A DNA stretch of 33,760 nt from Verrucomicrobium sp. BvORR034. Its GTDB lineage: Bacteria > Verrucomicrobiota > Verrucomicrobiia > Verrucomicrobiales > Verrucomicrobiaceae. The DNA lies in assembly GCF_000739635.1 (NCBI RefSeq), contig NZ_BATQ01000080.1, positions 1 to 33,760 on the forward strand. Direction: 5' to 3'. Shown here one piece after another: positions 15,902 through 33,760 of the stretch (positions are counted from its first letter, which is position 1; each line of letters starts with the position of its first letter). The notes below the pieces were generated by a model. That model saw only the letters and a list, made by a program, of their open reading frames with translations, searched no databases and was not told the origin of the DNA. The translations under genes and the position numbers were made by a program.

Positions 15902-17104
15902 TCACGCCTTGAGCCCTGCCAGATCTGGCGTGGCGGGCTTGGCATTCGCGATGAACTGGTCCCAGGTCGCACCGCCGGGTGTCTTGGCAGCGTATTCACC
16001 GAACAGGGTGAGCAAGGCGGATTCGACGGCCCCTTCGATGGTGGGGTTGCCCTTCGGATCCTTGGCAGCGATGGCGGCGCGGAGTTGCTCGACATTTTTC
16101 TCTGAACCCGTGCGATACAGGTTGGTGGCCACGCCGCCGGGCCAGTAGGCTTCTTTGCCCCCGCGGATCATGACACGACCGGCGAACTCGGAGGTGAAGA
16201 TGCCCTTGTTCCCGACGAAGCGGTTGCCGCACATGAACGGCGATCCCCAGCCGTTGAACTGGCGGGAGGCGAAGCTCACGGAGCCCTTGGCAAACTCGAA
16301 TAAGAGGGAGAAGTGATCCGCCACATCCCCGATGTCGTCCGGGCGGGCGGCGCGTCCGCACTGGCCAGTGACGCGGGTGGGGCGCCCGAAGGCCCAGCTC
16401 ACGATGTCCAGGGCGTGGATGTTCTGCTCCGTGATGATGTCTCCGGCCAGGTCGCGATGGCGGATCCAGTTTTTCAGGCGGCCTTCCGGCTGGGTGTCGT
16501 CGTGCTTGCAGGGGATGAGCTCGGCCTCGTAGTGGCACTCGCCATAGAGGAGGTCACCGATGGCCCCTTCGTGTACCCGCTTGATGCCTTCCTGGAAGAA
16601 CTCGTCCCCGCGTGATTGTACGTCGGCCAGGACCACGATGCCTTTTGCCGCAGCATGCTTGGCGAGCTGGCGGATGGTTTCACACCCGGCCACATCAATG
16701 GCCATGGGCTTGGCGATGAGGACATGCTTGCCAGCGGCGACGGCATCGATGGCCTGTTGCACGTGAAAGTAGGGCGGGCTGTGAATGGCCACGACGTCCA
16801 CGTGCTCCATCATCTTCTTGTAGCCGTCCAGCCCGGTGAACTGCTTGTCGGTGGGGACATTGAACTTTTCGCCGTACTTGGTGGCGCTCTCTGGGAAGTA
16901 GTCACAGGCCGCAGCGATCCGGAACCCGGGGTTCTCCACGATGATGCCGGAGACAAAGTTTCCTCGACCCCCGCAGCCGATGTTCCCGATTTTGAAGACG
17001 GGGCCGCTGTAGTCTGCCTTGGCCGGAGTGGGGGCTGTCTGCGCGGCGAGCTGTGAGGCCAGGGTTGCGAGACCGGTGGCGTGGAAAAAGGAGCGGCGGT
17101 TCAT
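15902..17104 (-). CDS. Tat-exported Gfo/Idh/MocA-family oxidoreductase
   Basis: The product has 400 residues. A Tat signal (MNRRSFFHATGLATLASQLA, twin Arg followed by SFF) indicates export in folded form. Then comes a Rossmann domain starting FKIGNIGCGGRGNFVSG, with a nucleotide-binding pattern. VAIHSPPYFHVQQAIDAVAAGKHVLIAKPMA contains the family's (E/A)KP-type motif, followed by the substrate-binding alpha/beta domain (GDIITEQNIHALDIVSWAFGRP). Such exported members are very abundant in Planctomycetes and Verrucomicrobia and act on sugars or sugar derivatives. The cofactor is probably NAD(P), but the substrate cannot be told. The gene is alone on its strand; no operon partner is visible. Confidence 0.88.
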   Translation of the reverse strand: MNRRSFFHATGLATLASQLAAQTAPTPAKADYSGPVFKIGNIGCGGRGNFVSGIIVENPGFRIAAACDYFPESATKYGEKFNVPTDKQFTGLDGYKKMMEHVDVVAIHSPPYFHVQQAIDAVAAGKHVLIAKPMAIDVAGCETIRQLAKHAAAKGIVVLADVQSRGDEFFQEGIKRVHEGAIGDLLYGECHYEAELIPCKHDDTQPEGRLKNWIRHRDLAGDIITEQNIHALDIVSWAFGRPTRVTGQCGRAARPDDIGDVADHFSLLFEFAKGSVSFASRQFNGWGSPFMCGNRFVGNKGIFTSEFAGRVMIRGGKEAYWPGGVATNLYRTGSEKNVEQLRAAIAAKDPKGNPTIEGAVESALLTLFGEYAAKTPGGATWDQFIANAKPATPDLAGLKA

Positions 17105-17292
17105 AGGTGGGTGGACGGGATTCGCGACGAGGGGACTGGGTTTCAGTCATCCAATGACCCTGGGCAGTCAGGTGTAACGCGATTTGGTGGAGCGGGAGTT
17201 GGGGGTGTGGTTTTGCGGTGATCTGGAGGGGGTTGATTTTCAGGCGGTTGGAGGGTGGTTTGGCCTGCGTGGGAGGCGTGAGTGGAGAGGAG

Positions 17293-17730
17293 GCTCGTGG
17301 CTGCATTCGTGAAAATGCGGAATGGCAGGGTGAGAGCGACCTTGTGGGGTGGGTTGCTTCCGTTGGGTGTGAGCGGCCCACTCTGACCGCGTTCTTACGA
17401 ACGCAGCCACGACTGAAAGGAAATAACTAGCAGGCGTGAGTGGAGAGGTGGCTTGTGGCTGCATTCGTGAGAATGCGGAATGGCGGGGGGCGAGCGACCT
17501 TGTGGGGTGGGTTGCTTCCGTTGGGTGTGAGCGGCCCACTCTGACCGCGTTCTTACGAACGCAGCCACGACTGATAGGAAATAACAGGCGGGCGTGAGTG
17601 GAGAGGCAGCTCGTGGCTGCATTCGTGAGAATGCGGAATGGCGGGTGCGAGCGACCTTGTGGGGTGGATTGCTTCCGTTGGGTGCGAGCTGCCCACTCTG
17701 ACCGCGTTCTTACGAACGCAGCCACGACTG
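17293..17730. repeat. REPIN-like tandem array 1, three units of 158 bases
   Basis: Three tandem units start at 17293, 17451 and 17609 (period 158). Each begins with GTGGCTGCATTCGTGAGAAT-type sequence and ends with CGCGTTCTTACGAACGCAGC-type sequence. These two ends are inverted repeats of each other over about 24 bases, and each alone forms a perfect local hairpin (GCATTC-GTGA-GAATGC and GCGTTC-TTAC-GAACGC). A linker of about 90 bases lies between them. The array starts just 32 bases past the 3' end of the kinase gene, on its downstream side, and 189 bases upstream of the oxidoreductase start. Confidence 0.9.
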
Positions 17731-17761
17731 AAGGGAATGACTGGCAGGCGCGAGCTTCTGG

Positions 17762-20092
17762 CTAGGTGCTGCTCTTGCGCAGGCGTGTTTGGGCTCGAGC
17801 CTCCGCCTCGGCTTCCTTCAGGAGCAGGGAGGCGACGGACCAGTCGTACCATTTGAAGAAGATGACCTTTTCCTCGCTCACTTCATCGACTCTCGTGCGG
17901 CGAATGACGGACTTGGCCAGTTTGAGTTCAGCCTTGGCGGCATCCCCGTGACCGAGATTCTGATGGCAGACAGCCATCATGGCCCGGAGACCGGCGGCGC
18001 AGATTTCCCGGATGTTGGGCGCGGCGAGGGCCACATGGGCAATCTGGAGCACCTTCTCGTATTCGCCTTTTCGATAGTGATACAGGGCCAGGGAGTAGGC
18101 CTCCCATGCGGGGAAGGATCCTTCAGAGTGGGCTTGCACGGTGGCCTCGCAGATGGCCGCTGCGTCTGCCAGTTGTTGCAGCATTTCCGGCGAGGCCTTC
18201 ACAATCAGACAGGCCTTGAGAATGTGCTCGGCCTGCAGGGAATCTGTCACCGGCAGATACCGAGAGAGCATCTCGGTTCGGAAGGCATCGTAGGCTTTCT
18301 TGTCGCCCAGTTCCAGCAGGGCGGGGGCGGTGATGAGCAGATCCGTGCCGCGCAGGAGCTCTTCCGGGCGGGTCATCTGGGTGGCCTGGGCCATGAGGCG
18401 ATAGCATTGGACAGCCTCCGCCCACTTCCCGTAGGTGGCGTACCAGTTCCCGAGCGTTCTGAAGACGGAGGAAGCCTCCTTGGAGGGCTCGATGGAGACC
18501 AGGGGCGTCTGCTGCAGCAGTTCTTCTGCCTCGCTGATCTTGCCTTCCCCGAGCAGGAAGGCGGCGCGTGAGACATTGGCTCTGGCCTGGGCCTGCTGAC
18601 GGAGGGCGAGCTCCTGATCGCGGGACTTCTGCGCCTCCAGGCTTAACCGCTCCTGTTCACTGAGTGCCTCTTTCTCCCGGAGGTAGAGCATGGTGGAGGC
18701 GCCGAATCCCAGGAGGATCGCGGTGATCCCGGCGAGAGCGGAGTAGAAGGGGATGCGATTGCGCCGGACGAACCGGGTGAAGGTGTAGAAGTTGTTGGGC
18801 CGGCGGGCTGTCACCGGCTTGTCCTGCAAGTGTCGCTTCAGATCCAGCGCCAGGGCGCTCGCGGTCTCATAGCGGCTGTTGCGGTCCTTCTCCAGGGCCT
18901 TCATGACGATGCCGTCCAGATCACCCCGCACGGAGGCGAGCAGTCGCGATGGCTCCGCCTGCCGGGCGGTGGCGATGGTCTTCAGCTCCTCCTCACCCAC
19001 CTCCGTAAGCCGCGCGGAGGGCTTGAGGTGCTGCTTGTCCAGGATGAGTTTCCTCATACCCGCCATGCCGGCGCTCATCAGCATCTTGCGGTCAAAGGGC
19101 GTCTGGGAGGTGAGCAGCTCATAGAGCAGCACGCCGAGGCTGTACACATCGCTGCGGGTATCCACATCGATGCCGATCATCTCCACCTGCTCCGGGCTCA
19201 TGTAGGCCGGGGTGCCGAGGAAGTGATCGTGACCGGTGAGGCGCGGCTCCACCTTGGTGTCGGTGGCCACGGCCTTGGCGATGCCGAAGTCGATGACCTT
19301 GGCGACGGGTTGATGACGGGGGCCGCTCACGAGCACGTTGGACGGCTTGATATCGCGGTGAATGATCCGCTTGGAATGCGCGTGCTGGATGGCCTCGCAC
19401 ACATCGATGAAGAGGGCGATGCGCTGCCGCACATCCAGCTTCTCGCGATCGCAGTAGCTGGTGATGGACTCTCCCTCCACCAGCTCCAGGACGAAGTAGG
19501 GGCTGCCATTGTGAAAGCCGCCCACGTCCAGCACCTTCGCGATGTTCGGGTGGTCCATGATGGCCAGCGCCTGGCGCTCCACATCGAAGCGCGCCTTGGT
19601 AATGGCGCTGCCGGTATCGATCCAAAAGAGCTTGAGCGCGACGCGTCTTCTCACGGGCTGGGCCTGCTCTGCCTCATACACGATACCGCTGCCGCCTTCA
19701 CCGAGACACCGCACCAGAAGATAGTCCCCAATGCAGGAACCCACCTCCGGCGGACGATCTGCCGCCGCCGTAGTGGGAGACGTCTTCTGGGGAGGCAGGT
19801 CGCTCATGAGCTGCGTGGCCAGATGCGTGCGAGCCTCCCGTGCCTCCAGAAAAAACGAGGTGGCCTCACTGGCCGCGCCCAGGAGTGTTTTCATCCGCTG
19901 CAGCCCCTGGGGATCATCGCGGAAGGTGAGTTCAAGGAAATCCTGTTGCTGCTTCGCGTCTTCCAGCGACAGCGCGACCTCGTAGATGGCTCCTTCAACA
20001 GCGGTGTTCACAGGCAGGGGGTCTCCAGGCTTCAGGAGCGGTTGAGATCCTCCTGGATCATCTGGTACAGGCGGGCTTTGGCAAAGGTCCAC
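17762..20092 (-). CDS. Membrane-anchored Ser/Thr protein kinase with C-terminal helical (TPR-like) region
   Basis: This PknB-type kinase has 776 residues if the ATG at 20092 is used. The kinase domain (about 120-425) has the glycine loop GEGGSGIVYEAE (about 131), the ATP-binding Lys in VALKLF (about K154), the catalytic HRDIKPSN (about 245-252), DFGIAKA (about 268), and TPAYMSPEQ. A membrane helix follows at about 448-470, then a charged, probably coiled segment and a long alpha-helical region like TPR repeats, predicted on the far side of the membrane. A GTG at 20011, 20 bases after the sigma-factor stop and with GGAG upstream, is an alternative start. The gene directly follows and overlaps an ECF sigma gene, an ECF/kinase pairing known from related phyla. 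Confidence 0.9.
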   Translation of the reverse strand: MDLCQSPPVPDDPGGSQPLLKPGDPLPVNTAVEGAIYEVALSLEDAKQQQDFLELTFRDDPQGLQRMKTLLGAASEATSFFLEAREARTHLATQLMSDLPPQKTSPTTAAADRPPEVGSCIGDYLLVRCLGEGGSGIVYEAEQAQPVRRRVALKLFWIDTGSAITKARFDVERQALAIMDHPNIAKVLDVGGFHNGSPYFVLELVEGESITSYCDREKLDVRQRIALFIDVCEAIQHAHSKRIIHRDIKPSNVLVSGPRHQPVAKVIDFGIAKAVATDTKVEPRLTGHDHFLGTPAYMSPEQVEMIGIDVDTRSDVYSLGVLLYELLTSQTPFDRKMLMSAGMAGMRKLILDKQHLKPSARLTEVGEEELKTIATARQAEPSRLLASVRGDLDGIVMKALEKDRNSRYETASALALDLKRHLQDKPVTARRPNNFYTFTRFVRRNRIPFYSALAGITAILLGFGASTMLYLREKEALSEQERLSLEAQKSRDQELALRQQAQARANVSRAAFLLGEGKISEAEELLQQTPLVSIEPSKEASSVFRTLGNWYATYGKWAEAVQCYRLMAQATQMTRPEELLRGTDLLITAPALLELGDKKAYDAFRTEMLSRYLPVTDSLQAEHILKACLIVKASPEMLQQLADAAAICEATVQAHSEGSFPAWEAYSLALYHYRKGEYEKVLQIAHVALAAPNIREICAAGLRAMMAVCHQNLGHGDAAKAELKLAKSVIRRTRVDEVSEEKVIFFKWYDWSVASLLLKEAEAEARAQTRLRKSST

Positions 20093-20625
20093 TGTCTTTC
20101 CACCGTCCTGAGACTGTGCCCCAACATGGAAGCGATCTCCTCACTGGTGGATCCGCTGAAGAACTTGAGCATGACAATCCGCGCCGCGTGAGCATCCTCC
20201 TGCTCCAACCGGGTGAGGGCCTCGTGGATGAGCAGGATATGGTCGCCGTCTGCGGGCTCCTCGCTCTGGGCAAGCGAGGGATCATCGGTGAGCTGGCGTT
20301 TGACGGCGGACTTGGTCCGGGCCCGGTCCACCAGGATGCGCCGCATCGCCTCCGCAGCGGCGCCAAAGAAATGGGCCTGGCTGTCCCACTCCGATTGGGA
20401 GGTGGCCAGGCGCAGCCACGCCTCATGCACCAGCGCGGTGGGTTGCAGGGTCTGCAGGCCAGACTCCCGGAACAGCTTGGACGCCGCGAGCCGTCGCAGC
20501 TTCTCATACATGACCGGCAACAGTTCGTCTGAGGTGAGACTTTCACCTGAAGGGGCATCCGCCGGATGGGCCGCTCCATCTACAGCGGTCTTCCCGGAAG
20601 ATTCGGCAGGTGAGGAGGGGTTCAT
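20032..20625 (-). CDS. ECF-type RNA polymerase sigma factor (TIGR02999-like)
   Basis: The 197-residue product contains a sigma region 2 (LLPVMYEKLRRLAASKLFRE...TALVHEAWLRLA, SQAHFFGAAAEAMRRILVDRART) and a region 4 helix-turn-helix (MLKFFSGSTSEEIASMLGHSLRTVERQWTFAKARLYQ). This pattern fits the ECF group found next to Ser/Thr kinases in Planctomycetes, Verrucomicrobia and Acidobacteria. The ATG at 20625 is chosen; the frame runs further up to 20814, but that region looks non-coding. The kinase ORF begins before this gene's stop, suggesting that the kinase controls the sigma factor, directly or through its target genes; no anti-sigma gene is seen. Confidence 0.85.
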   Translation of the reverse strand: MNPSSPAESSGKTAVDGAAHPADAPSGESLTSDELLPVMYEKLRRLAASKLFRESGLQTLQPTALVHEAWLRLATSQSEWDSQAHFFGAAAEAMRRILVDRARTKSAVKRQLTDDPSLAQSEEPADGDHILLIHEALTRLEQEDAHAARIVMLKFFSGSTSEEIASMLGHSLRTVERQWTFAKARLYQMIQEDLNRS

Positions 20626-21061
20626 GGCAATGAGGCTGGATCTGGAACGCCAATTAAACGCCTCATCAAGCCGAGGTCCAGCATCAAGAGGAAAGATAGT
20701 CTTCACATCATGAGAGGGCGTTGCACCGTGTTGAGGGGTGATTTCAGGAAAAGTAGCATGTTTTGAAAAATCTTGGCGGACGAGGGACTCCGAATCCGCA
20801 TCAACTCGCGCCAATGGTCGAATTGATCGAGATTAGAACTGCATACGAGTCCCTGGAGAAGCTGGTAACGGGATTCCAGCCGGGATGCAGTCCGATCGAG
20901 GTGACAAAATCGTCACCAGGCCGGTATTCGGCGCAGACGGACAGGAGCCGCTCTGCGGGCCGGGTCGTACGCGCGCCCCTGCCTGTGCCGCCAGCCACGC
21001 GGCCGGGCCTCTGCCTCAGGAATAATTACCTGTAACCCAAGAACAAACCACGTCCTTCCTC
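20626..21061. other. 436-base divergent intergenic region between the sigma factor and the PEP-CTERM gene
   Basis: I see no supportable gene here. The stretch near 20695-20775 is AT-richer than its surroundings, as expected for promoters. No clear -35/-10 pair or operator stands out. It should hold the promoters for both the sigma/kinase pair and the PEP-CTERM gene. Confidence 0.4.
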
Positions 21062-21934
21062 ATGCGCCTTACTCCGTCCACCGTCTGCAAAGCTCTGGCC
21101 TCATGCGCTGCTCTCGCCTGTCTCGCGGCTCCTGCGTGGGCGGCCACCGTGGTGACCGATGCAAATTTCAACTCCGGCACCTTTGCGGATGCCGGGCTGT
21201 TTGACTTCAGCCTGCAACGAAATCCCACGGTGCGTGCAAACGTTGGGGTGGGGGGCTCCACCGGGCTGGAGTTTGGCAACAACGGCGGTGCCGTGACGGC
21301 ATCCATGACCATTGGTTCCACCGCCACCTTCTCGATGTACGGCGAGTACAATGGGAATTCAGGAAATAATGGCAGCGCCATGTCGTTTGGCTGGACACGG
21401 GCCACGACGGAGTTCAATTCCTTCAGCGGAGCTGGCACGGGTGTGACCGCCGCAGATACCATCCTGGTGGGGCTGGCTCGCACGTCCGACGGTGGCTTCA
21501 GTCTCGGTGCGGCCAACGGAGCCACAGGGGCGGTGGGAGGTACTGGCACCTACTTTGGGAACACGGTGGCCTCCCTCACCTCCGGCAACTGGTATCGGCT
21601 GGAGGGCACCATCACCTATGATCCGGTCACGGGCACGTTCACCTTTGTGAATGTCTCGCTGGATGACTTTGGCGCGGATGGCACTGGCGAGGTCACGGCG
21701 AATGTCCTGAGCGGCACGGGAAAGACGATCGTCGTGCCAGACTTTGGCACGGTGGGGCGGGGTATCTTTGCCACGAACCAGGATCGCGGTGTGTTCTACA
21801 CAGACAACTACTACCTGGCAGTAACTCCAGAGCCCACAGTATCAATGCTGCTGGTCTTGGGCGGTGTGGCGCTCGTGGGGCGTCGGCGCAGGCCGGGGTG
21901 TGCCAGCCATCGTCCTGAGAGCGCGCCCGCCTGA
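21062..21934 (+). CDS. PEP-CTERM-sorted exported protein
   Basis: The 290-residue product has an N-terminal signal peptide (MRLTPSTVCKALASCAALAC..., likely cleaved after AWA), a beta-rich, Gly/Thr/Ser-rich body, and a PEP-CTERM sorting signal: VTPEPTVSMLLVLGGVALVGRRRR at about residues 254-277. PEP-CTERM proteins are processed by an exosortase and end up at the surface or in extracellular matrix. The body resembles many verrucomicrobial PEP-CTERM proteins of unknown function. An odd point is a tail of about 13 residues after the RRRR cluster, whereas the motif usually lies at the very end. It starts a plus-strand group with the prepilin-like and phosphatase genes. Confidence 0.85.
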   Translation: MRLTPSTVCKALASCAALACLAAPAWAATVVTDANFNSGTFADAGLFDFSLQRNPTVRANVGVGGSTGLEFGNNGGAVTASMTIGSTATFSMYGEYNGNSGNNGSAMSFGWTRATTEFNSFSGAGTGVTAADTILVGLARTSDGGFSLGAANGATGAVGGTGTYFGNTVASLTSGNWYRLEGTITYDPVTGTFTFVNVSLDDFGADGTGEVTANVLSGTGKTIVVPDFGTVGRGIFATNQDRGVFYTDNYYLAVTPEPTVSMLLVLGGVALVGRRRRPGCASHRPESAPA

Positions 21935-21988
21935 ATCCTGGTGGGGATATGGGAAACGACCTTGTCACAGCCAACTCCTGAAATCCGC

Positions 21989-22231
21989 ATGAATCTTCCT
22001 GCCTCCACATGCCGTGCCCGACGTGGCTTCAGCCTTCTGGAGGTGGTGCTTGCCACGGGCATCATCAGCAGTTCATTGCTGGCGGTGGTATGTCTGTTGC
22101 CCGTCTTCATGGCGGTGGAGCAAGACCGGACGCAAGAGCCTGTGCTGCCGCGGCCCGAGTCAGTCGCGCCTGAGGGGTGTGTGCTCGCTGGCGGGCCAGC
22201 CTCGGAGGCGGGTGCCGGCAAGCTGAACTGA
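21989..22231 (+). CDS. Short prepilin-like protein with N-terminal methylation motif
   Basis: The 80-residue product begins MNLPASTCRARRGFSLLEVVLATG, a type IV prepilin leader: basic residues, Gly at the cleavage site, Phe1 and Glu5 of the mature protein, then a hydrophobic helix (about 17-40). Only about 40 residues follow the helix, and they are Pro/Glu/Ala-rich without pilin features. True pilins and minor pilins are usually 130-200 residues. It may be a minor pseudopilin-like protein, a truncated gene, or one of the short prepilin-leader proteins common in this phylum. The ATG at 21989 gives the normal leader length. Confidence 0.65.
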   Translation: MNLPASTCRARRGFSLLEVVLATGIISSSLLAVVCLLPVFMAVEQDRTQEPVLPRPESVAPEGCVLAGGPASEAGAGKLN

Positions 22232-22283
22232 ACGAAACTCTCCCACATCGCATAAGAGCGATTTGCCAAGATATCTATTGTCC

Positions 22284-23282
22284 ATGAAGAACATTGCCCC
22301 TGTATCCTCCCGTCCCTGCGCTTGTAAACCCGGCCCGCATCGCCAATCTGCTTCCCGCCTGCGGTGGGTGCCAGGTTCCCTGACTCCGCTCATGCTGGCA
22401 GTCGTGCTGTTGCTTTTGGGGACCCAGGTGTCTCAGGCAGTCATTGTCGGCACCTTTAACATCCGGTATGACAATCCCAAGGATGGGGAAAACGGGAACG
22501 GCTGGCTGCAGCGGGCACCGGTCATCGCCTCGCTGATCCGCTTTCACCGGTTCGATGTATTGGGTATTCAGGAAGCCCTGCATCATCAGGTGGAGGATCT
22601 GCAGAGCCAGCTGCCGGCCTATACCCACACCGGCTGCGGACGCGATGACGGGCATGAGGAGGGAGAGTTCGCGGCCATCTTCTATCGCAAGGATGTGTTC
22701 ACCCTGAAGGACAGCGGCACGTTCTGGCTTTCGCCGACGCCAGAGGTGCCTTCCATCGGCTGGGACGCGAAGTTCAACCGCATCTGCACCTGGGTGAAAC
22801 TGGAGTCGAACAAGACGCATGAGACGCTTTACGTGTTCAACACCCACTTTGACCACCAGGGCACGACGGCCCGCATGGAGAGCGCGCGACTCATTCTGGC
22901 GAAGATCCAGGAGATCGCCGGCGGGAAACCCACCGTGCTCACCGGGGATTTCAATGTGGATCAAACGAGCGAGAGCTACCGGCAGATTCACGACTCCCAG
23001 CTCCTGGTGGATGGCTTTGAAACCGCAGAGGAGAGGTATGCGCTGAACGGTACGGCCAATGGGTTCAAGGTAAGTGCCTTCACTGACCGCCGCATTGACC
23101 ACGTCTTTCACAGCCGGGCGTTCAAGGTGCTGCGCTACGGCGTGCTCACGGACAGCTACCGCTCGCCATCAGAGGATGTGGCGGAAACGGGCTCGGTTGC
23201 GCTTCCGCGTGAGATGAAGTTCAGGAACTACCTGCCTAGGACTCCGTCCGACCACTTCCCGGTGCTGCTGGAGTTGGAGTGA
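22284..23282 (+). CDS. Exported endonuclease/exonuclease/phosphatase-family protein
   Basis: This protein of about 332 residues has a hydrophobic segment after a basic N-terminus (about 35-50), acting as signal peptide or anchor. The EEP-superfamily domain follows: IVGTFNIRYDNPKDG (metal-binding Asn), VLGIQEAL (Glu), YVFNTHFDH (His region), TVLTGDFNVDQ (Asp and Asn) and the C-terminal PSDHFPVLLELE with the catalytic Asp-His pair. This covers nucleases, phosphodiesterases and phosphatases; the substrate cannot be told. An upstream TTG at 22263 would add seven residues; the ATG at 22284 is preferred. It is 52 bases after the prepilin-like gene. Confidence 0.85.
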   Translation: MKNIAPVSSRPCACKPGPHRQSASRLRWVPGSLTPLMLAVVLLLLGTQVSQAVIVGTFNIRYDNPKDGENGNGWLQRAPVIASLIRFHRFDVLGIQEALHHQVEDLQSQLPAYTHTGCGRDDGHEEGEFAAIFYRKDVFTLKDSGTFWLSPTPEVPSIGWDAKFNRICTWVKLESNKTHETLYVFNTHFDHQGTTARMESARLILAKIQEIAGGKPTVLTGDFNVDQTSESYRQIHDSQLLVDGFETAEERYALNGTANGFKVSAFTDRRIDHVFHSRAFKVLRYGVLTDSYRSPSEDVAETGSVALPREMKFRNYLPRTPSDHFPVLLELE

Positions 23283-23303
23283 GGAGGCGGGGGCAGCGTG
23301 ACG

Positions 23304-23730
23304 GCTCGTGGCTGTATTCGTGAGAATGCGGGAGGGTTCGGGGGAATTTGGCTGCGCGGAAAGTCTTGTCTCCGCCGTGGTCGGATGACGTGCCTGACCG
23401 CGTTCTCACGAACGCAGCCACGACTGAAAGGGGGTGAGCGGTCGGTGTGGGGTGCGAGGAAGCTTGTAGCTGCGTTCGTGAGAACGCGGGGGGCGGGTGC
23501 GAGGGGCTGTGGGAGGGTTGTTTGTGTTGCGTGCGAGCGGTGCGTCCTGACCACGTTCTTACGAACGCAGCCACGACTGAAGGGGGTGGGCTGTAGGCGT
23601 GGGGTTTTAGGAAGCTTGTAGCTGCGTTCGTGAGAACGCGGAGGGCGGGTGCGAGGGGCTGTGGGGTGAGTTGTTTCTGTTGCGTGCGAGCGGTGCGCTC
23701 TGACCACGTTCTTACGAACGCAGCCACACG
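23304..23730. repeat. REPIN-like tandem array 2, three units (periods 158 and 152)
   Basis: Units start at 23304, 23462 and 23614. They share the plan of array 1 (left hairpin, linker, right hairpin ending in ACGAACGCAGCCAC), in the same orientation. In units 2 and 3 the left hairpin is GCGTTC-GTGA-GAACGC rather than GCATTC-GTGA-GAATGC, a paired change that keeps the stem. The array fills the convergent gap between the EEP gene (ends 23282) and the lyase gene (3' end at 23774), 21 bases after the former. Confidence 0.9.
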
Positions 23731-23773
23731 AATGAAAGGGGTTGAGCGGTCGGTGTGGGGTTCTAGGACGGAC

Positions 23774-25777
23774 TCAGGGGGTTGCGGGCAGGAAGTCTTC
23801 GAGTCGGGCCTGCTCACTGCCAATTTTGACATCGGTGACGTACACGGTCTTGCGTTTCACGTTCGTCTGTTCCGCCTCGAAGGCGAGGCGCTTGCGCTCC
23901 TGGTCCACATGCCACTCCGGGTGGTAGATGCCGGTTTTCAGATAGGGGGTGTAGGCCACACCGATGGTGCCATATACATTCGGGCCCTTGCGCTCAAAGA
24001 CGGGCTTGCCATCGCGCCAGATTTTGGTGAGGCCGCTCTCTTCCGGTGACCACTTTGCCTGTATGATCCAGGAGACCCACTGACCGCGTTTCACCGGCTC
24101 TTCCAGCACCTGGCCCTGGCGGGTGGGGCCTGCCTGAGGTGAGCCGTAGCTCTGCGCGATGCGCCAGCGGTCATTGGCCACAGAGATGGCCAGATTGGAG
24201 AAGGTTGGCCGCCAGTTCCCGGGGACGCCGTGCCACTGCAAGACGATGTCCTGCCCTTTGGTCGGGTCGAAGATCCAGTCTTCCGGAATGAAGATGCGGG
24301 CGGCATACCAGCGTTCGTTGAAACTACTTTCAGAGGGCAGGGAGATTTCAGACCGGAAGGAGTTGGGAGCGCGCTCCACGTTGAAGCGTACGGCCTTGGT
24401 GCCCGCCGGCATCTTTGGCGCATCCACCACCTGGATGCACTCCGGGGTGGGGGCGGGCAGTGAGTAGCGGTCGTCTTCAGAGAAGTTCCAGCGGGCGAGC
24501 CCGGCGTCCTGGAAGTCGTCCGCAAACAGGATGCGCTGCTTCGTCTTGAAGACATCCGCGGCCCGCACCCGTCTCGTCGCGGCAGGGGTGGAGGTGTGGT
24601 TGAAGAGGGAGGTCCACAGCAGCGGCTGGGTGATGGGATTGTTCCGCCGGATTTCAAAGTCCTGGGGGTCGGGTTTCAGCCTGTGCCAGAGCATCAGATA
24701 TTTTTCCTCGTGCAAGGCCAGGCCGCCGAAGAGCAGCGCTGGCTGCCTTACTGGCCAGCCCTCCCAGGCATTCACATCCGGGGCCTTTGGCCAGGAGGAT
24801 TTGTCCGCCAGGTAGGGGTGGAGGAAAGCCACGGCCTTGGCCATGTTTCTGCCGTCCGGCGCGGTGAAGGTCCAGAGATTGTCTGACGGTGTGGAGAGGA
24901 GCTGGCACAGCGCCGCCATGAGGTCGAGCTGGAAGATGGAGTAGGCGTAGGGCTTGGTGCGGGCCAGTTCAAAAGGGAAGCCGCCATCACCGCCCATCTG
25001 CATGGGCACGAAGATTTCCTTGAACTGGCGGCGGCACTCGGTGAGCAGCGCTGCATCCCCGGTGAGTGTGGCAAAGGAGGCCACCTGCAGCCAGTAGGCC
25101 ACGGCATGGTTGTTCTTTGCGGTGGCCTCATTCTTGCCCTTCGGGCTTTCGATAAACCACTTCGTGTAGTCCACGAACCACTGACGCAGGCTGGCAAAGT
25201 CCTCCTTAGACAGGGCCTTGGAGTCACGCAGGGCAAGGATGGACAACGGCACCTCGATGAGATGCAGGGTATCGATCAAGCCCGTGCCACGTTGCGGCGT
25301 GGCCTTGCCGACGATGGCCTGGGCGTAGTCCAGGCTGGGATGCATGCGGGTTGCCTTGTCGATGAAGAACACCTTCAGCAACTCCACCGCCTTGGCCGCA
25401 TAGCGTTCCTCCTGGGTCAGCAGATAGGCGGCCGCCAGGGCGGAGGTGGCATCGCGCATGGCCATGAGGGACTTGCGATGCTCATTGAAGTTCTCCGGGT
25501 TCGACTGGCCGTCCCGCATGAGGTAGGGCTTCCCGTCCGGCTTTGCGGGATCGGGCCAGTAGTAGTCGCTCATGGAAAAGAACTCGTCAGGCCGGCCTTC
25601 GCTGAGCGGGGAGCGGTCGGACGTGATGGACACCGGCTGCATCGTCAAGGCAGCATCCGCCCGGGTCAGAATTCGCTCCCGATCCTGTTTGGCAACCCGG
25701 GAAGGGCCAGGCGCGGCGGCGGGTGAGGAGAGGGCAAAAAGGAGGGCCGGAAGGGCCGCGAAAAAAAGTTTCGTCAT
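23774..25777 (-). CDS. Two-domain exported polysaccharide lyase (alginate-lyase-like PL5 plus concanavalin-type lyase)
   Basis: The product is 667 residues. A signal peptide (MTKLFFAALPALLFALSSPAA) starts at the ATG at 25777; the open frame continues upstream but overlaps the divergent promoter region. Residues about 60-390 resemble the alginate-lyase (PL5, alpha/alpha-toroid) fold, with the conserved NNHAVAYWLQVASFA (about 222-236, catalytic-type Asn-His) and FELARTKPYAYSIFQLDLMA (about 269-288, candidate Arg and Tyr). Residues about 415-660 resemble PL20/heparin-lyase-I-type jelly-roll domains: FADDFQDAGLARW, FRSEISLPSESSFNERWYAARIF, DIVLQWHGVPG and the Lys/Tyr-rich C-terminal part. The fusion suggests use of uronate-containing polysaccharides from algae or plants. 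The substrate is inferred from family only. Confidence 0.8.
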   Translation of the reverse strand: MTKLFFAALPALLFALSSPAAAPGPSRVAKQDRERILTRADAALTMQPVSITSDRSPLSEGRPDEFFSMSDYYWPDPAKPDGKPYLMRDGQSNPENFNEHRKSLMAMRDATSALAAAYLLTQEERYAAKAVELLKVFFIDKATRMHPSLDYAQAIVGKATPQRGTGLIDTLHLIEVPLSILALRDSKALSKEDFASLRQWFVDYTKWFIESPKGKNEATAKNNHAVAYWLQVASFATLTGDAALLTECRRQFKEIFVPMQMGGDGGFPFELARTKPYAYSIFQLDLMAALCQLLSTPSDNLWTFTAPDGRNMAKAVAFLHPYLADKSSWPKAPDVNAWEGWPVRQPALLFGGLALHEEKYLMLWHRLKPDPQDFEIRRNNPITQPLLWTSLFNHTSTPAATRRVRAADVFKTKQRILFADDFQDAGLARWNFSEDDRYSLPAPTPECIQVVDAPKMPAGTKAVRFNVERAPNSFRSEISLPSESSFNERWYAARIFIPEDWIFDPTKGQDIVLQWHGVPGNWRPTFSNLAISVANDRWRIAQSYGSPQAGPTRQGQVLEEPVKRGQWVSWIIQAKWSPEESGLTKIWRDGKPVFERKGPNVYGTIGVAYTPYLKTGIYHPEWHVDQERKRLAFEAEQTNVKRKTVYVTDVKIGSEQARLEDFLPATP

Positions 25778-25931
25778 GGATGGCGGGTGGGCGACAAATG
25801 TCCTGCCGCGTTCCGGGGTTGCGGAATATTTTACAGATGCCGTCGGGCAGGGCCGCCTATTGTCAAAAGGCGCTCGGGATGAGCCTTGCATCCCGTCGCA
25901 AAAAGAGGGTTGCAATTTTATGCGGCTCAAA

Positions 25932-25950
25932 TACTCTTGATTTAAGAGTA
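25932..25950. promoter_or_regulatory. Perfect 7-bp inverted repeat upstream of the winged-helix regulator (putative operator)
   Basis: TACTCTT-GATTT-AAGAGTA at 25932-25950 is a perfect inverted repeat with a 5-base spacer, 14 bases before the regulator's GTG and about 155 bases from the divergent lyase start. A TTGCAA at 25910-25915 upstream could be a -35, placing the palindrome over the -10. It probably serves an autoregulatory operator; this is inferred. Confidence 0.5.
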
Positions 25951-25964
25951 ATCTGAAACGAAGA

Positions 25965-26315
25965 GTGAGTGCGCCCCAGCCCATCGACTTCTCCAACCTG
26001 GACACCGCCGTGCACGGTCCCGTCCGGCTGGGGTTGCTGACGGCGCTGCAGTCTGGTGGGCCGATGGACTTCACGACGTTGAAAGGCCGGTTGAAGACTG
26101 CGGATGGGGCTCTAGGGCTGCATCTGCAGAAGCTGGAGTCGATAGGCTACATCACGGCGACGAAGCGCTTCATCGGCAAACGGCCGAACACCACCTATGA
26201 ACTGACGCACCCGGGCCGCACGGCGCTCTTTGAGTACCTGGCCATCATGCAGCGGCTTATCGATTCGATGGATCTCGCCCAGTGGGAAAAGTCCAAGTCA
26301 AAACATCAAACCTGA
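25965..26315 (+). CDS. Winged-helix transcriptional regulator (HTH_34 / PF13601-like)
   Basis: This 116-residue regulator (GTG start) contains a MarR/ArsR-type winged helix. Helix 1 is LDTAVHGPVRLGLLTALQSGGP. The helix-turn-helix and wing follow in DFTTLKGRLKTADGALGLHLQKLESIGYITATKRF and IGKRPNTTYELTHPGRTALFEYL. It resembles the PF13601 regulators that often precede a small membrane protein. Its partner here begins only 8 bases after its stop, which makes an operon almost certain. It is divergent from the lyase gene, and a perfect palindrome sits just upstream, so it may regulate its own operon and perhaps the lyase. Confidence 0.85.
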   Translation: MSAPQPIDFSNLDTAVHGPVRLGLLTALQSGGPMDFTTLKGRLKTADGALGLHLQKLESIGYITATKRFIGKRPNTTYELTHPGRTALFEYLAIMQRLIDSMDLAQWEKSKSKHQT

Positions 26316-26323
26316 CCGGTCCT

Positions 26324-26800
26324 ATGGAAAACCAGCATCCCTCCGTTCCGCCAACGTTCGCACCGGTGGCCCCGCCTCCACAGCCGATGTCCCCGCAGCA
26401 ATTGCAGTCAGACATGGAGACGATCCGTTCGATTCTGAATGAGTCGCCTGCCAGCAAGGGGCCGCACCGGCTCATCCTCGCCGGGGCCAATATCTTCTGC
26501 GGTCTCATGCCCCTGGTGGCGGTGCCCTTCATCTTGCTGGGCACGGGCATTCCCGCCATGGTCGTGCCGCATGAGGAGGGGTCATTCATCCCGCTGGTCA
26601 TCGGCCTCGCCATCTCCGCGTTTCTGGTGCTCTTTGCCATCCCGTTCTTCCTGGCGGGGTGGGGGTTGTTCAAGGACCGCAGTTGGGGGACGGTGGCGGC
26701 GATTGTGGCCGCGGTGCTGAACGTCATGAATGTGCCCTTTGGCACGGCGATCTCGATCTACACCTTCTGGGCTCTGGCAAAGAACAAGCTGACGAGTTGA
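26324..26800 (+). CDS. Small integral membrane protein, operon partner of the winged-helix regulator
   Basis: The 158-residue product has a Pro/Gln-rich soluble N-terminus of about 60 residues. Three or four membrane helices follow, including RLILAGANIFCGLMPLVAVPFILLG, LVIGLAISAFLVLFAIPFFLAGWGL and WGTVAAIVAAVLNVMNVPFGTAISIYTFWAL. The last part resembles small 'DUF4064-like' or related membrane proteins. I cannot name the function. The ATG at 26324 is preferred over a GTG-type extension at 26282 that would overlap the regulator. PF13601-type regulators with a membrane protein partner usually control that partner. Confidence 0.75.
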   Translation: MENQHPSVPPTFAPVAPPPQPMSPQQLQSDMETIRSILNESPASKGPHRLILAGANIFCGLMPLVAVPFILLGTGIPAMVVPHEEGSFIPLVIGLAISAFLVLFAIPFFLAGWGLFKDRSWGTVAAIVAAVLNVMNVPFGTAISIYTFWALAKNKLTS

Positions 26801-26882
26801 TGCTCCTGCTGGCCTGGCGAGGTTCAGCGGGAGGCAGATTTCACGTTGAGTTCTGGGCAGGCTGGCCCATAGCCTTCCGCTC

Positions 26883-28148
26883 ATGCCGGAAAATTCCATC
26901 GAACTCGTGCGGACCACGCTGGACGGCCTCTACCGCTCGGAATCTGGTCGCATTCTCGCCACGCTCATCCGGTTGCTGGGTGACTTTGACCTGGCGGAGG
27001 ACGCCATGCATGACGCCTTTGCCGCGGGACTGGAGCGCTGGCCGCAGGAGGGCGTGCCGGCCAATCCCCGTTCCTGGCTGATCTCCACCGGGCGACACAA
27101 GGCCATCGATGGGCTGCGGCGTCGGGCGCGGTTCGATGCTTCACAGGACAAGATCGCGGACCAACTCCTGCCCAGCGGTGACTTTGCCCCTGCTGATGTG
27201 GGGACGGAGTCCGACGAGAGCGTGCCCGACGACCAGCTCCGCCTGATCTTCACCTGCTGTCATCCCGCCCTGGCACCAGAGGGGCGGCTGGCGCTGACGC
27301 TGCGGGAGGTCTGCGGTCTGACGACGGAGGAGATCGCCCGCGCCTTCCTCACCACCGCGCCTACGCTGGCGCAGCGCATCGTGCGGGCCAAGGCCAAGAT
27401 CCGGGACGAGCGCCTGCCGTATCAAGTGCCAGCGCCGGAGGAACTGCCAGCGCGTCTGGATGCGGTGCTGCAGGTGGTGTATCTCATGTTCAACGAGGGC
27501 TACTCCGCCTCAGCAGGGGCGTCGCTCACGCGGGCTGATCTTTCTGGCGAGGCGATCCGCCTGGGGCGTTTGTTGCTGGAGTTGTTGCCTGAACCCGAGG
27601 GGATGGGGCTGCTCGCCCTTATGCTCTTGCAGGAGTCTCGCCGTGCCGCACGGACGTCGCCATCGGGTGAACTGATCCTGCTGGAGGATCAAGACCGCAC
27701 GCAGTGGGATCGTGCCCTCATTGCAGAGGGCGTGAAGCTGGTGGAGCGGGCGCTGCTTTCGCGTCGCTTCGGCCCCTACACGTTGCAGGCAGCGATCGCG
27801 GCGGTGCATTCTGAGGCGGCCTCTGCCGCTGCCACGGACTGGCCGCAGATCGTGGCGCTGTACAATCTGCTGGCCCGTGCGGTGCCCTCGCCAGTCATTG
27901 AGCTGAACCGCGCGGTGGCCGTGGCCATGAGGGATGGACCCGAGGCAGGGTTGGCGTTGATCGATGGCCTGCTCCAGCGCGGTGTGTTGACGGAGTATCA
28001 CCTGGCTCATTCGGCGCGGGCGGATCTCTGCCGGCGTCTGGGCAGGAAAGGGGAGGCGCGTGCCTCGTATGAGCGTGCTCTGGCGCTTACCCAGCAGGAG
28101 CCGGAGCGGCGATTTCTGGAGAAGCGGCTGCGGGAGCTGGAAGAATAA
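26883..28148 (+). CDS. ECF42-type sigma factor with C-terminal TPR-like domain
   Basis: This 421-residue protein has an N-terminal sigma region 2 (about 1-75: LIRLLGDFDLAEDAMHDAFAAGLERWP, NPRSWLISTGRHKAIDGLRRRA). A region 4 helix-turn-helix follows at about 120-175 (RLALTLREVCGLTTEEIARAFLTTAPTLAQRIVRAKAKI). A long C-terminal extension of about 240 residues includes VLQVVYLMFNEGYSAS and NRAVAVAMRDGPEAGL, hallmarks of the ECF42/SigJ-like group (DUF6596). In this group the extension is needed for activity and there is no anti-sigma factor. The DGPF/YCII gene directly downstream is its usual genomic partner, and an ECF42-type promoter lies between the two genes. Confidence 0.92.
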   Translation: MPENSIELVRTTLDGLYRSESGRILATLIRLLGDFDLAEDAMHDAFAAGLERWPQEGVPANPRSWLISTGRHKAIDGLRRRARFDASQDKIADQLLPSGDFAPADVGTESDESVPDDQLRLIFTCCHPALAPEGRLALTLREVCGLTTEEIARAFLTTAPTLAQRIVRAKAKIRDERLPYQVPAPEELPARLDAVLQVVYLMFNEGYSASAGASLTRADLSGEAIRLGRLLLELLPEPEGMGLLALMLLQESRRAARTSPSGELILLEDQDRTQWDRALIAEGVKLVERALLSRRFGPYTLQAAIAAVHSEAASAAATDWPQIVALYNLLARAVPSPVIELNRAVAVAMRDGPEAGLALIDGLLQRGVLTEYHLAHSARADLCRRLGRKGEARASYERALALTQQEPERRFLEKRLRELEE

Positions 28149-28166
28149 CAAAAAAGTGTGCAGGGT

Positions 28167-28193
28167 GTCGAATTCCAGGATTGGCAATCGACT
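28167..28193 (+). promoter_or_regulatory. ECF42-type promoter upstream of the DGPF/YCII gene
   Basis: TGTCGA (28167-28172), a 17-base spacer and CGAC (28190-28193) fit the ECF42 consensus as I recall it (TGTCGA at -35 and CGWC-like at -10). It ends 60 bases before the ATG at 28254. So the sigma factor should drive its partner gene. Confidence 0.7.
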
Positions 28194-28253
28194 ACCTCAT
28201 GAAGCGGTCAAAAAACAAAGGCCGCTGTGAACTCGCCAACTTATTGAACCGAC

Positions 28254-28637
28254 ATGAAATACATCTGCCTTGGATACATCGAACCCAACAAGTTTGAGAA
28301 CCTGTCTGAAGCCGAGCGCAACGCGCTGGTGGACGCATGCTTCAGCTATGACGACGAGCTGCGGAAGAATGGCCACTTTGCCGGTGGCGAAGGCCTGCAG
28401 GGTCCGCAGTCTGCCGCCACCCTGCGCTGGGAGAATGGCAAGGTCGCGGTGACCGATGGGCCCTATGCCGAGACCAAGGAACAGATCGGCGGCATCCTCA
28501 TTCTGGAAGCGCGGGACTTGAATCACGCCATTCAACTGATGTCCAAGCACCCCGGAGTGAAGGCGGGTCCGTTTGAGATCCGGCCAGCGGCGGATTTGTC
28601 TGGGATGATGCAGGAAAGCGAGGAGCGGAGAGGGTGA
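28254..28637 (+). CDS. YCII-related (DGPF) domain protein
   Basis: The 127-residue product belongs to the YCII/DGPF family of small ferredoxin-like-fold proteins. Features are [36 protein letters not shown] at the N-terminus, [30 protein letters not shown] (the DGPF-type motif, here DGPYAETKE), and [17 protein letters not shown]. The function is not established; it always travels with ECF42-type sigma factors, and several are regulated by them. Usually the DGPF gene lies upstream of or next to the sigma gene; here it is downstream, with its own ECF42-type promoter. Confidence 0.9.
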
Positions 28638-28649
28638 TTCGGTGGGGCG

Positions 28650-28673
28650 GTGCGTCAGTGCGTCAGTGCGTCG
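28650..28673 (+). repeat. Octamer tandem repeat (three GTGCGTCA units)
   Basis: GTGCGTCA occurs twice followed by GTGCGTCG, directly after the DGPF gene stop. It is a short microsatellite-like patch between the gene and REPIN array 3. Confidence 0.8.
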
Positions 28674-28695
28674 GTGGGCGGCGCTCGTAGGGAGG

Positions 28696-29128
28696 GCTTG
28701 TAGCTGCATTCGTGAGAATGCGGAATGGGCGGGTGCGAGCGGGCTTTTGGGGTGGGTTGGTGCTGCTGCGTACGTGCGGCCCATCCTGACCACGTTCTTA
28801 CGAACGCAGCCACGAGTGCAGGAAATAATCTGTGGGCGTGGGGGCGAGGAAGCTCGTAGCTGCATTCGTGAGAATGCGGAAGGGCGGGTGCGAGCGGCCT
28901 TTTGGGGTGGGTTGGTGCTGCTGCGTGCGTGCGGCCCATCCTGACCACGTTCTTACGAACGCAGCCACGAGTGCTGGAAATAATCTGTGGGCGTGGGGGT
29001 GGGGAAGCTTGTAGCTGCATTCGTGAGAATGCGGAATGGGCGGGTGCGAGCGGGCTTTTGGGGTGGGTTGGTGCTGCTGCGTGTAGGCGGCCCGCCCTGA
29101 CCACGTTCTTACGAATGCAGCCACGACG
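28696..29128. repeat. REPIN-like tandem array 3, three units (periods 156 and 155)
   Basis: Units start at 28696, 28852 and 29007 in the same orientation as arrays 1 and 2. Each has a left hairpin in GTAGCTGCATTCGTGAGAAT, a linker with GGGTTGGTGCTGCTGCG, and a right hairpin in CGTTCTTACGAACGCAGCCA (the last copy has one base changed in one arm, GAATGC for GAACGC). The linker differs from arrays 1 and 2 in sequence but not much in length. The array starts 59 bases after the DGPF stop. Confidence 0.9.
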
Positions 29129-29148: not shown

Positions 29149-29219
29149 GTAGAAGAGCCGTCCCGGCTCTTTAGGGTGCTGGATGATGCGGGCACAAGAA
29201 CCTCGACGGCTCTCCTATA
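29149..29219. repeat. 71-base REPIN-like element, family 3, copy 1
   Basis: It begins GTAGAAGAGCCGTCCCGGCT and ends with a GACGGCTCTCCTA-type inverted motif. It is paired in the same orientation with a copy at 29536-29606. It lies 6 bases from the 3' end of the small membrane-protein gene. Confidence 0.75.
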
Positions 29220-29535: not shown

Positions 29536-29606
29536 GTAGAAGAGCCGTCCCGGCTCTTGGGGTTGCTGGGTGGTTCGAGGAACAAGAACCGAGACGGTTC
29601 TTCTAC
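29536..29606. repeat. 71-base REPIN-like element, family 3, copy 2
   Basis: Two hairpin motifs face each other: GTAGAAGAGCCGTCCCGGCT at the left and AAGAACCGAGACGGTTCTTC at the right. It is the second copy of 29149-29219 and is 13 bases from the 27-bp inverted-repeat element. Confidence 0.75.
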
Positions 29607-29920: not shown

Positions 29921-29955
29921 CTAACGTCTAACTCTTAACTCTTAACTCTTAACTT
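29921..29955 (-). repeat. Heptamer microsatellite, GTTAAGA/GTTAGAC type
   Basis: Five tandem 7-base units, seen on the minus strand as GTTAAGA or GTTAGAC variants. It sits between the terminator and the receptor's stop codon. It is related in unit to the GTTGGAC heptamers at 33624-33672. Confidence 0.75.
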
Positions 29956-33361: not shown

Positions 33362-33760
33362 CCTCAAGTCCCCTGCAACACGGCCCCAAGCTGCCCCCAT
33401 GTCATCGGCAACCTCCTCTCAATCCTCCTCAACCCACTTCCAAGGCACCTCCCACCCCACCTGCAACGGCTCAGCAAGTAGCCCTGCAACATTAATGAAA
33501 AAGTCTTCCAATGATAAAGTCTGTTGAGTGAGAAAGTCATTGGCGGAGTTGGGCACACTCGGAACAGAGATAGAATCGGAATCGAGAGGAATCGAGAGGG
33601 AGTGTGTGAGTGGGTAAGGGGGCGTTGGATGTTGGACGTTGGACGTTGGACGTTGGACGTTGTACGTTAGGCGTGGAAATTCCCACGAAAAGGTGCTGAG
33701 GTGGAGGAGATCACGAAGGACCTGGAGAAAGCGCTGGGTGGGAAGGGGAGCTGAGCCATT
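33362..33760. other. Gene-free end of the window with short repeats and a possible gene remnant
   Basis: No clear gene is present. Bases 33572-33600 have a short direct repeat (GGAATCGAGAG twice), and 33624-33672 is a heptamer array. From 33671 to the stop at 33752-33754 the frame is open and encodes charged sequence ending VEEITKDLEKALGGKGS, which looks like the tail of a protein but has no start. Confidence 0.4.
33624..33672 (+). repeat. Heptamer microsatellite, GTTGGAC type (seven units)
   Basis: GTTGGAT, four perfect GTTGGAC units, then GTTGTAC and GTTAGGC, all in phase with a period of 7 (49 bases). A related heptamer patch is at 29921-29955. Confidence 0.9.

Follow-up and report, generated by a model that had tools for sequence, protein, structure and literature searches.

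Neighboring triplets of tandem REPINs in Verrucomicrobium sp. BvORR034 very probably belong to a GTRG-tagged family whose rows change length in place

Between positions 17,293 and 29,128 of a 33,760-nucleotide stretch of DNA from Verrucomicrobium sp. BvORR034 (the whole stretch, contig NZ_BATQ01000080.1, is termed the window herein), three loci each carry three tandem units of about 155 bases, all in one orientation. This arrangement raises the question of whether three is a fixed number, as if an element jumped as a ready-made triplet, or whether the rows came about in another way. We consider it very probable that they are tandem arrays of REPINs (inverted pairs of repetitive extragenic palindromes [REPs]) of a GTRG-tagged REP family, organized like type 2 bacterial interspersed mosaic elements (BIME-2), and that they were seeded as single REPINs and then lengthened or shortened in place in each lineage. 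Since rows change length in place, three neighboring triplets look like a coincidence. The window is one whole contig (C121) of the BvORR034 genome (G000; 8.58 Mb in 200 contigs).

Tandem Repeats Finder placed the arrays at 17270-17754 (period 158), 23393-23768 (period 153), and 28696-29126 (period 155), and a scan for the single hairpins, or arms, detected six arms in each array, alternating between the plus and minus strands, at 17297-17725, 23308-23727, and 28700-29124. Each array therefore comprises three units, and the original prediction, which had been made from the letters alone and gave periods of 152 to 158 bases, was right about this count. It had also described the unit as a REPIN-like pair of inverted hairpins around a linker, and the units indeed consist of two inverted, GTRG-tagged REPs with compensated stems, the plus and minus arms starting 69 to 93 bases apart in the BvORR034 genome and 77 to 92 bases apart in G003, a congeneric genome assembled as one contig of 8,220,857 bases. 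The sequence GCTY precedes all nine left arms of the window. Units from different window arrays are 63 to 85% identical; in array 2, however, the count of three conceals units that are not alike, as unit 2a shares just 66% and 63% identity with units 2b and 2c, respectively, and 63 to 67% with the other eight window units altogether.

The arms belong to a genome-wide family. The arm pattern GCTGCRTTCNTNRGAAYGCGG, with up to 3 mismatches, matched the BvORR034 genome 159 times (72 forward and 87 reverse), compared to 3 matches for a reversed control, and BLAST returned 105 matches. Arms follow one plan, namely, GTRG, an 8-bp stem half, a 4-nucleotide (nt) loop (GTGA in 94 and GTAA in 54 of 161 arms), and the other stem half, with the tag lying outside the pairing at the foot of the hairpin (GTGG in 86/161 and GTAG in 67/161 arms, 153/161 together); these 161 arms had been selected for similarity to a consensus in which GTRG is itself present. 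Each of the eight stem positions is paired in 153 to 160 of the 161 arms, with many compensated stem types, and the fairest figure, for which the stem position was left free on both sides, is 159/161 pairing (90 G-C, 69 A-T, and 2 other). No called gene overlapped any of the 27 contig-internal clusters tested; here and below, gene positions and array-gene distances come from a simple codon-score gene caller made for this analysis. The arrays are thus made of GTAG-type REPs: the tag, the base-paired palindrome, and the many extragenic copies are all borne out. A 3.5-Mb genome of the same family (G007) holds 96 arms, among the listed matches mostly a close variant, GTAGCCGCGTTCGTAAGAACGC, and some of them lie 168 to 170 bases apart.

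Three is not a rule for these arrays. The whole-genome search with the arm, which the original prediction had proposed, yielded at least 53 clusters in BvORR034 (38 of the 53 with two or more arms) and at least 39 clusters of two or more arms in G003. In BvORR034, 43 clusters were internal to contigs and ranged from one to eight arms (15 single-arm, 9 two-arm, 3 three-arm, 7 four-arm, 1 five-arm, 5 six-arm, and 3 eight-arm clusters), and three of the five six-arm clusters are the window arrays. The other 10 lay no more than 250 bp from a contig end, compared to an expected 0.6 (P = 6e-10, n = 53), which argues that the assembly tends to break in arrays; long arrays of this genome have probably been cut by assembly, and unit counts from fragmented assemblies should be read with this in mind. 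Clusters stand at the ends of contigs C24, C116, C118, C125, and C174 and at the starts of C23, C115, C123, C143, and C173. The G003 clusters hold 2 to 39 arms each, 343 arms in total (a row whose minus arms are unusual counts as two here), and many rows exceed four units, reaching up to about 20; six arms were found in just 2/39 clusters among those listed, one of them not alternating. The shared orientation of the three window arrays is real, but it does not extend to the genome: the G-type arm lies on the plus strand in 10/29 and on the minus strand in 19/29 scorable BvORR034 arrays (contig orientation being arbitrary) and in 19/30 and 11/30 arrays, respectively, of G003.

The same region in two relatives points to length change at fixed places. 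The window region is syntenic, reversed in both cases, with about 4.787 to 4.799 Mb of contig C1 of G003 and with contig C64 of a second congener, G002. The window has 3/3/3 units at loci 1, 2, and 3, whereas the corresponding G003 loci hold 1, four plus a lone left arm, and 4 units, and G002 carries a single arm at locus 1, a unit orthologous to 2a along with two units from another family at locus 2 (its alignment to the window passes through unit 2a to 23488), and no arm found in the syntenic region at locus 3. At locus 1, the array 1 units are 88 to 89% identical to the single G003 unit. In the spacers between them, the sequence following the arm matches the right flank of that G003 unit at 17/17 bases (spacer 1) and 16/17 bases (spacer 2) and then continues into its left flank; a right flank joined to a left flank is as expected of tandem duplication in place. 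At locus 2, unit 2a is the ortholog of the first G003 unit, whereas units 2b and 2c are closer to window array 3 (79 to 82%) than to G003 units 2b to 2d (72 to 77%), and the latter are 88 to 91% identical to the locus 3 units of G003. These identities suggest that each genome renews its rows, although an old unit can persist. The unit tree shows no grouping by position in the row: the array 1 units cluster, the array 3 units cluster, 2b falls with 2c, and 2a falls with its G003 ortholog.

We suggest the following course of events. Single REPINs, i.e., two inverted hairpins, usually with unlike stems, around a linker, would once have been placed behind genes by a RAYT-type (REP-associated tyrosine transposase) Y1 transposase acting on single-stranded DNA. 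Rows would then have lengthened or shortened in place as a unit with its immediate flanks was duplicated or lost, by slippage or unequal recombination, and this may have happened separately in each lineage; at locus 2, other units would have come to adjoin an older one.

A candidate for such a transposase lies in G003, where an array contains the gene for a 201-amino-acid (aa) RAYT-like protein, preceded by five and a half units and followed by three. The arrays on both sides match window array 3 at 69 to 70% over about 430 to 460 bases, and this gene is the sole one with arms within about 1.5 kb among the Y1_Tnp loci examined in G003. Three blocks, PDH-x-H, Q-x(4)-DHVLR, and Y-[IV]-x(2)-NP, which we take to be the HUH motif and the catalytic tyrosine, are present in 8/8 aligned relatives. 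Such blocks are read in the same way in one published account (PMC6006769). Full-length relatives were found in six other genomes of the 57 searched (G006, G009, G012, G023, G042, and G053), and G003 and G053 each have a second one. Around eight nearer relatives, hairpins of the same plan occur in 4/8; GTRG-tagged inverted repeats were detected by script in three of the remaining four (control, 2/85 stretches), and one is visible to the eye only in the eighth (L135). We also inspected 34 distant relatives, the first 34 of at least 80 loci (33 from the Planctomycetes-Verrucomicrobia-Chlamydiae [PVC] superphylum by record title and one from Armatimonadetes), and GTRG hairpins with 8-bp stems and 4-nt loops lay within 600 bp in 17/34, with 89 in 37.7 kb near the genes versus 6 in 85.0 kb far from them.

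The search for a RAYT gene that the original prediction had called for thus led to an array in G003; the BvORR034 genome, the contigs of which often end at arrays, returned none of full length. It has 15 Y1_Tnp matches, and 13 of these loci were fetched. A Y1_Tnp gene of its own as neighbor of the arms is unsupported at the 13 loci, where the five-deviation matches at L093 and L097 look like chance. Several of the genes fetched do carry GTAG hairpins, though of another sequence. The RAYT-like gene L181 (C15, 52500-54700), seen as two separate pieces with 31 to 35% identity to the G003 RAYT and with no arms nearby, is at most a candidate for the lost partner. Since there are only partial matches to the G003 protein, the arrays of BvORR034 look orphaned, or else the gene was lost in an assembly gap; we infer that they are orphans lacking their transposase. 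A Y1_Tnp family of about 350 aa has several copies in G003 and occurs at four of the fetched BvORR034 loci (L093, L096, L097, and L099), these arms not being nearby. Several REP-like systems coexist: the other Y1 transposase genes L088, L090, L095, and L167 each have GTAG hairpins on either side, with a sequence particular to them.

Several observations weigh against the proposed history. Concerning the transposase, the G003 Y1_Tnp loci examined were 20 of 39 matches, and the G003 protein scores 60.3 bits (E = 1.8e-16) against NCBIfam REP_Tyr_transpos, below the cutoff of 80; we call it RAYT-like because this is its only NCBIfam match. The BvORR034 genome has three matches to it, partial and of 23 to 38% identity, and none of full length, and the 13 of its 15 Y1_Tnp loci that were fetched have no arm with up to 4 deviations. 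G007 has its 96 arms yet no full-length relative either, and the pairing of RAYT and REPs therefore draws on G003 and more distant genomes. The same hairpin plan is missing at the other 4 of the eight nearer relatives and within 600 bp of 17/34 distant ones. Concerning the rows, G002 retains a spacer-like junction at locus 1, so that G003 may have contracted there and the ancestral row may have been longer than a single unit. Orthology is less secure at locus 3, as the YCII-related gene preceding array 3 is absent from the corresponding position of both G002 and G003 and the locus 3 units of BvORR034 and G003 are just 79 to 82% identical; the units at this locus may have arrived separately.

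The placement of the arrays bears on what they might do. Of the 27 contig-internal clusters with at least two arms, 16 lie between convergent genes, 10 between tandem genes, and 1 between divergent genes, and relative to the 132 gaps of 150 bp or more that these loci contain once the array gaps are removed, the convergent excess is significant (Fisher P = 1.6e-6, a rough value given the simple gene caller). A position behind genes, as originally predicted, thus holds for 26/27 clusters, and 24/26 convergent or tandem clusters are 10 to 99 bp from a 3' end. The more specific statement that all three window arrays start 20 to 60 bases from the 3' end of a gene fits arrays 2 and 3, which start 26 and 63 bp after plus-strand genes, but not array 1, the right end of which, not its start, is 37 bp from the 3' end (17762) of a minus-strand gene. 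The RNA folds of three units (six folds, both strands) all beat the shuffle mean (z scores of −2.95 to −7.26), although for one of the six, 2/200 shuffles fold as well. These data would suit selected 3'-end devices, RNA hairpins that protect mRNA ends or attenuate read-through, with the unit number tuning the effect. However, such positions would also be expected if insertions at other sites were deleterious, and in G002 the syntenic region revealed no array at locus 3. Placement and RNA folds are compatible with, but no proof of, an action on transcript ends, and as an account of the arrays we regard selection for this function as rather unlikely.

We think it improbable that the arrays are structural DNA sites, i.e., putative binding sites for gyrase, integration host factor (IHF), or HU-type proteins, as reported for Escherichia coli BIMEs. 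The organization in tandem alternating pairs of different REPs would agree with this (PMC2817692), but units from different window arrays are just 63 to 85% identical, and the DNA folds of two units were mixed (four folds; z scores of −4.48, −3.21, −0.43, and −1.59). Because of these mixed DNA folds we claim no cruciform role. In both the RNA and the DNA folds, the minimum structure pairs arm with arm rather than an arm with itself. Inverted arms around a linker could also be the ends or remnants of a known insertion sequence, similar to miniature inverted-repeat transposable elements and unrelated to RAYT; this is very improbable, as a GTRG tag outside the stem and the RAYT-like neighbors in other genomes fit REPs better, and arms were present at 0/13 of the fetched BvORR034 Y1_Tnp loci (Y1_Tnp being the family that the search covered). 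Finally, we reject the non-autonomous element jumping as a triplet of units as the least credible explanation of all, since the three neighboring three-unit arrays in one orientation that speak for it are outweighed by the syntenic counts, the unit tree, the makeup of array 2, and the G003 cluster sizes, against which the fixed number of three falls as well.

Tandem rows of REPINs have counterparts in known systems. As in E. coli BIME-2 and the yafM REPtron, tandem units are composed of two different inverted GTAG-type REPs (PMC2817692, PMC8266576), and the RAYT gene, here that of G003, is flanked by arrays on both sides. The alternation of different REPs that characterizes BIME-2 is seen in the left half-stems, which differ between the two arms in 64/67 BvORR034 units and 153/154 G003 units. 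In contrast to E. coli, the stems are short (8 bp, with a 4-nt loop) and lack the E. coli bulge, many compensated stem types occur per genome, and no such RAYT was found in the BvORR034 genome itself. The REPINs of Pseudomonas fluorescens SBW25 likewise consist of REP doublets, with tandem clusters that repeat their flanks and clusters adjoining RAYT genes, but in SBW25 REPINs mostly occur singly, and ordered REPIN clusters reach four units at most (PMC3116915), compared to up to about 20 units in G003 rows; tandem arrays of twelve REPs also occur in SBW25, and a second, unnamed mechanism was inferred for tandem REPIN clusters (PMC3116915). The GTAG families of Di Nocera et al. (2013), including that of Opitutus terrae, share the GTAG tag (GTGG in most O. 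terrae GTAG-20 elements), stems that are mostly 6 to 9 bp, heterodimers, tandem reiteration with flanks, and placement behind genes (PMC3733652); the likeness to GTAG-20 is one of description, and a word search of that text for spinosum returned nothing. Group 3 REPs of Stenotrophomonas also have a short perfect palindrome right after GTAG, with a 3-nt interruption (PMC8266576) instead of the 4-nt loop, mostly GTGA or GTAA, found here.

The kind of element is therefore already known (REPIN/BIME-2). In the REP, REPIN, and RAYT literature on Verrucomicrobia, screened mostly by title and the start of the abstract, we found no description of the GTRG-tagged family, with its long rows in one congener, and a word search of the available text of PMC12306157 found neither Verrucomicrobia nor RAYT. 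With these findings, REPIN/BIME-2 biology comes to include a RAYT clade encountered mainly among PVC bacteria, as well as rows of up to about 20 units. They also make single, triple, quadruple, remnant, and absent states comparable at neighboring loci of three congeneric genomes, which bears on the origin of tandem REPIN clusters.

The two arms of a unit are usually unlike. Counted by array, homotypic pairs make up 1/35 in BvORR034, with 4.8 expected (shuffle P = 0.027), and 0/35 in G003, with 5.8 expected (shuffle P = 0.0015), relatedness being ignored in both tests; counted by unit, both arms have the same left half-stem in 3/67 BvORR034 and 1/154 G003 units. At 18 distinct RAYT loci with a pair, the stems differ in 55/56 pairs, the one homotypic pair being at L227; with stricter stems, 36/37 pairs differ, at 15 RAYT loci. 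The commonest pair differs in the loop-side half at 17 of the 18 loci. Directly before the tag, CT, the dinucleotide cut by TnpA-REP (PMC8266576), is found at 9/9 left arms but just 2/9 right arms of the window. From this we would tentatively propose a polarity for the REPINs of this RAYT clade, which is mainly met in the PVC superphylum: unlike stem tips would be kept while stems drift, and the two arms would serve as coded ends, one left and one right. This proposal is doubtful, as it is weakened by the fact that the three BvORR034 exceptions are window units 2b, 2c, and 3c, by a possible common descent of the pairs, and by heterodimers being already on record, where their preference had no obvious explanation (PMC3733652).

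The features of the window are given in Table 1.

Table 1. REPIN arrays, their parts, and flanking genes in the window
Feature	Coordinates	Strand	Remarks
Array 1: REPIN units 17297-17410, 17455-17568, 17613-17725	17297..17725	+	Period 158; units 95-96% identical mutually
Array 2, unit 2a: older unit, ortholog of first G003 unit at locus 2	23308..23421	+	94% identity
Array 2, units 2b (23466-23574) and 2c (23618-23727)	23466..23727	+	89% identical mutually, unlike 2a
Array 3: REPIN units 28700-28813, 28856-28968, 29011-29124	28700..29124	+	91-97% identical
Representative left arm (REP) with GTGG tag, 8-bp stem, and 4-nt loop	17297..17320	+	
Example of a right arm (REP, minus strand), stem unlike that of the left arm	17387..17410	-	
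Spacer 1 of array 1	17411..17454	.	Start resembles right flank, end left flank, of the single-unit G003 locus
Flanking gene: GFO/IDH/MocA-type oxidoreductase	15902..17104	-	Pfam
Flanking gene: protein kinase, 3' end 37 bp from array 1	17762..20011	-	Pfam on 17762-20092; start from simple gene caller
Flanking gene: endonuclease/exonuclease/phosphatase family, 3' end 26 bp from the start of array 2	22392..23282	+	Pfam, gene caller
Flanking gene: alginate lyase domain protein, in convergent orientation with the gene preceding array 2	23774..25777	-	Pfam on 23774-26074; start from gene caller
Flanking gene: YCII-related protein, 3' end 63 bp from the start of array 3	28254..28637	+	Pfam, gene caller

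The best matches of the YCII-related gene sit elsewhere in G002 and G003; that in G003 (C1:3846817-3847284) has a further REPIN array (C1:3845041-3846059) less than 1 kb away. The window also contains a second family of GTAG-tagged hairpins, GTAGAAGARCCGTCYCGGYTCTT, at 29149-29171 (plus), 29536-29558 (plus), and 29584-29606 (minus), one arm lying 25 bp past array 3. It has 77 matches in the BvORR034 genome, compared to 0 for the control, and many also in G002 and G003, and it often pairs a GAGCC arm with a GAACC arm, so that unlike pairs occur in this family too. In addition, the window contains two 7-base tandem repeats, CGTTGGA (6.6 copies, 33623-33668) and TAACTCT (3.7 copies, 29929-29954).

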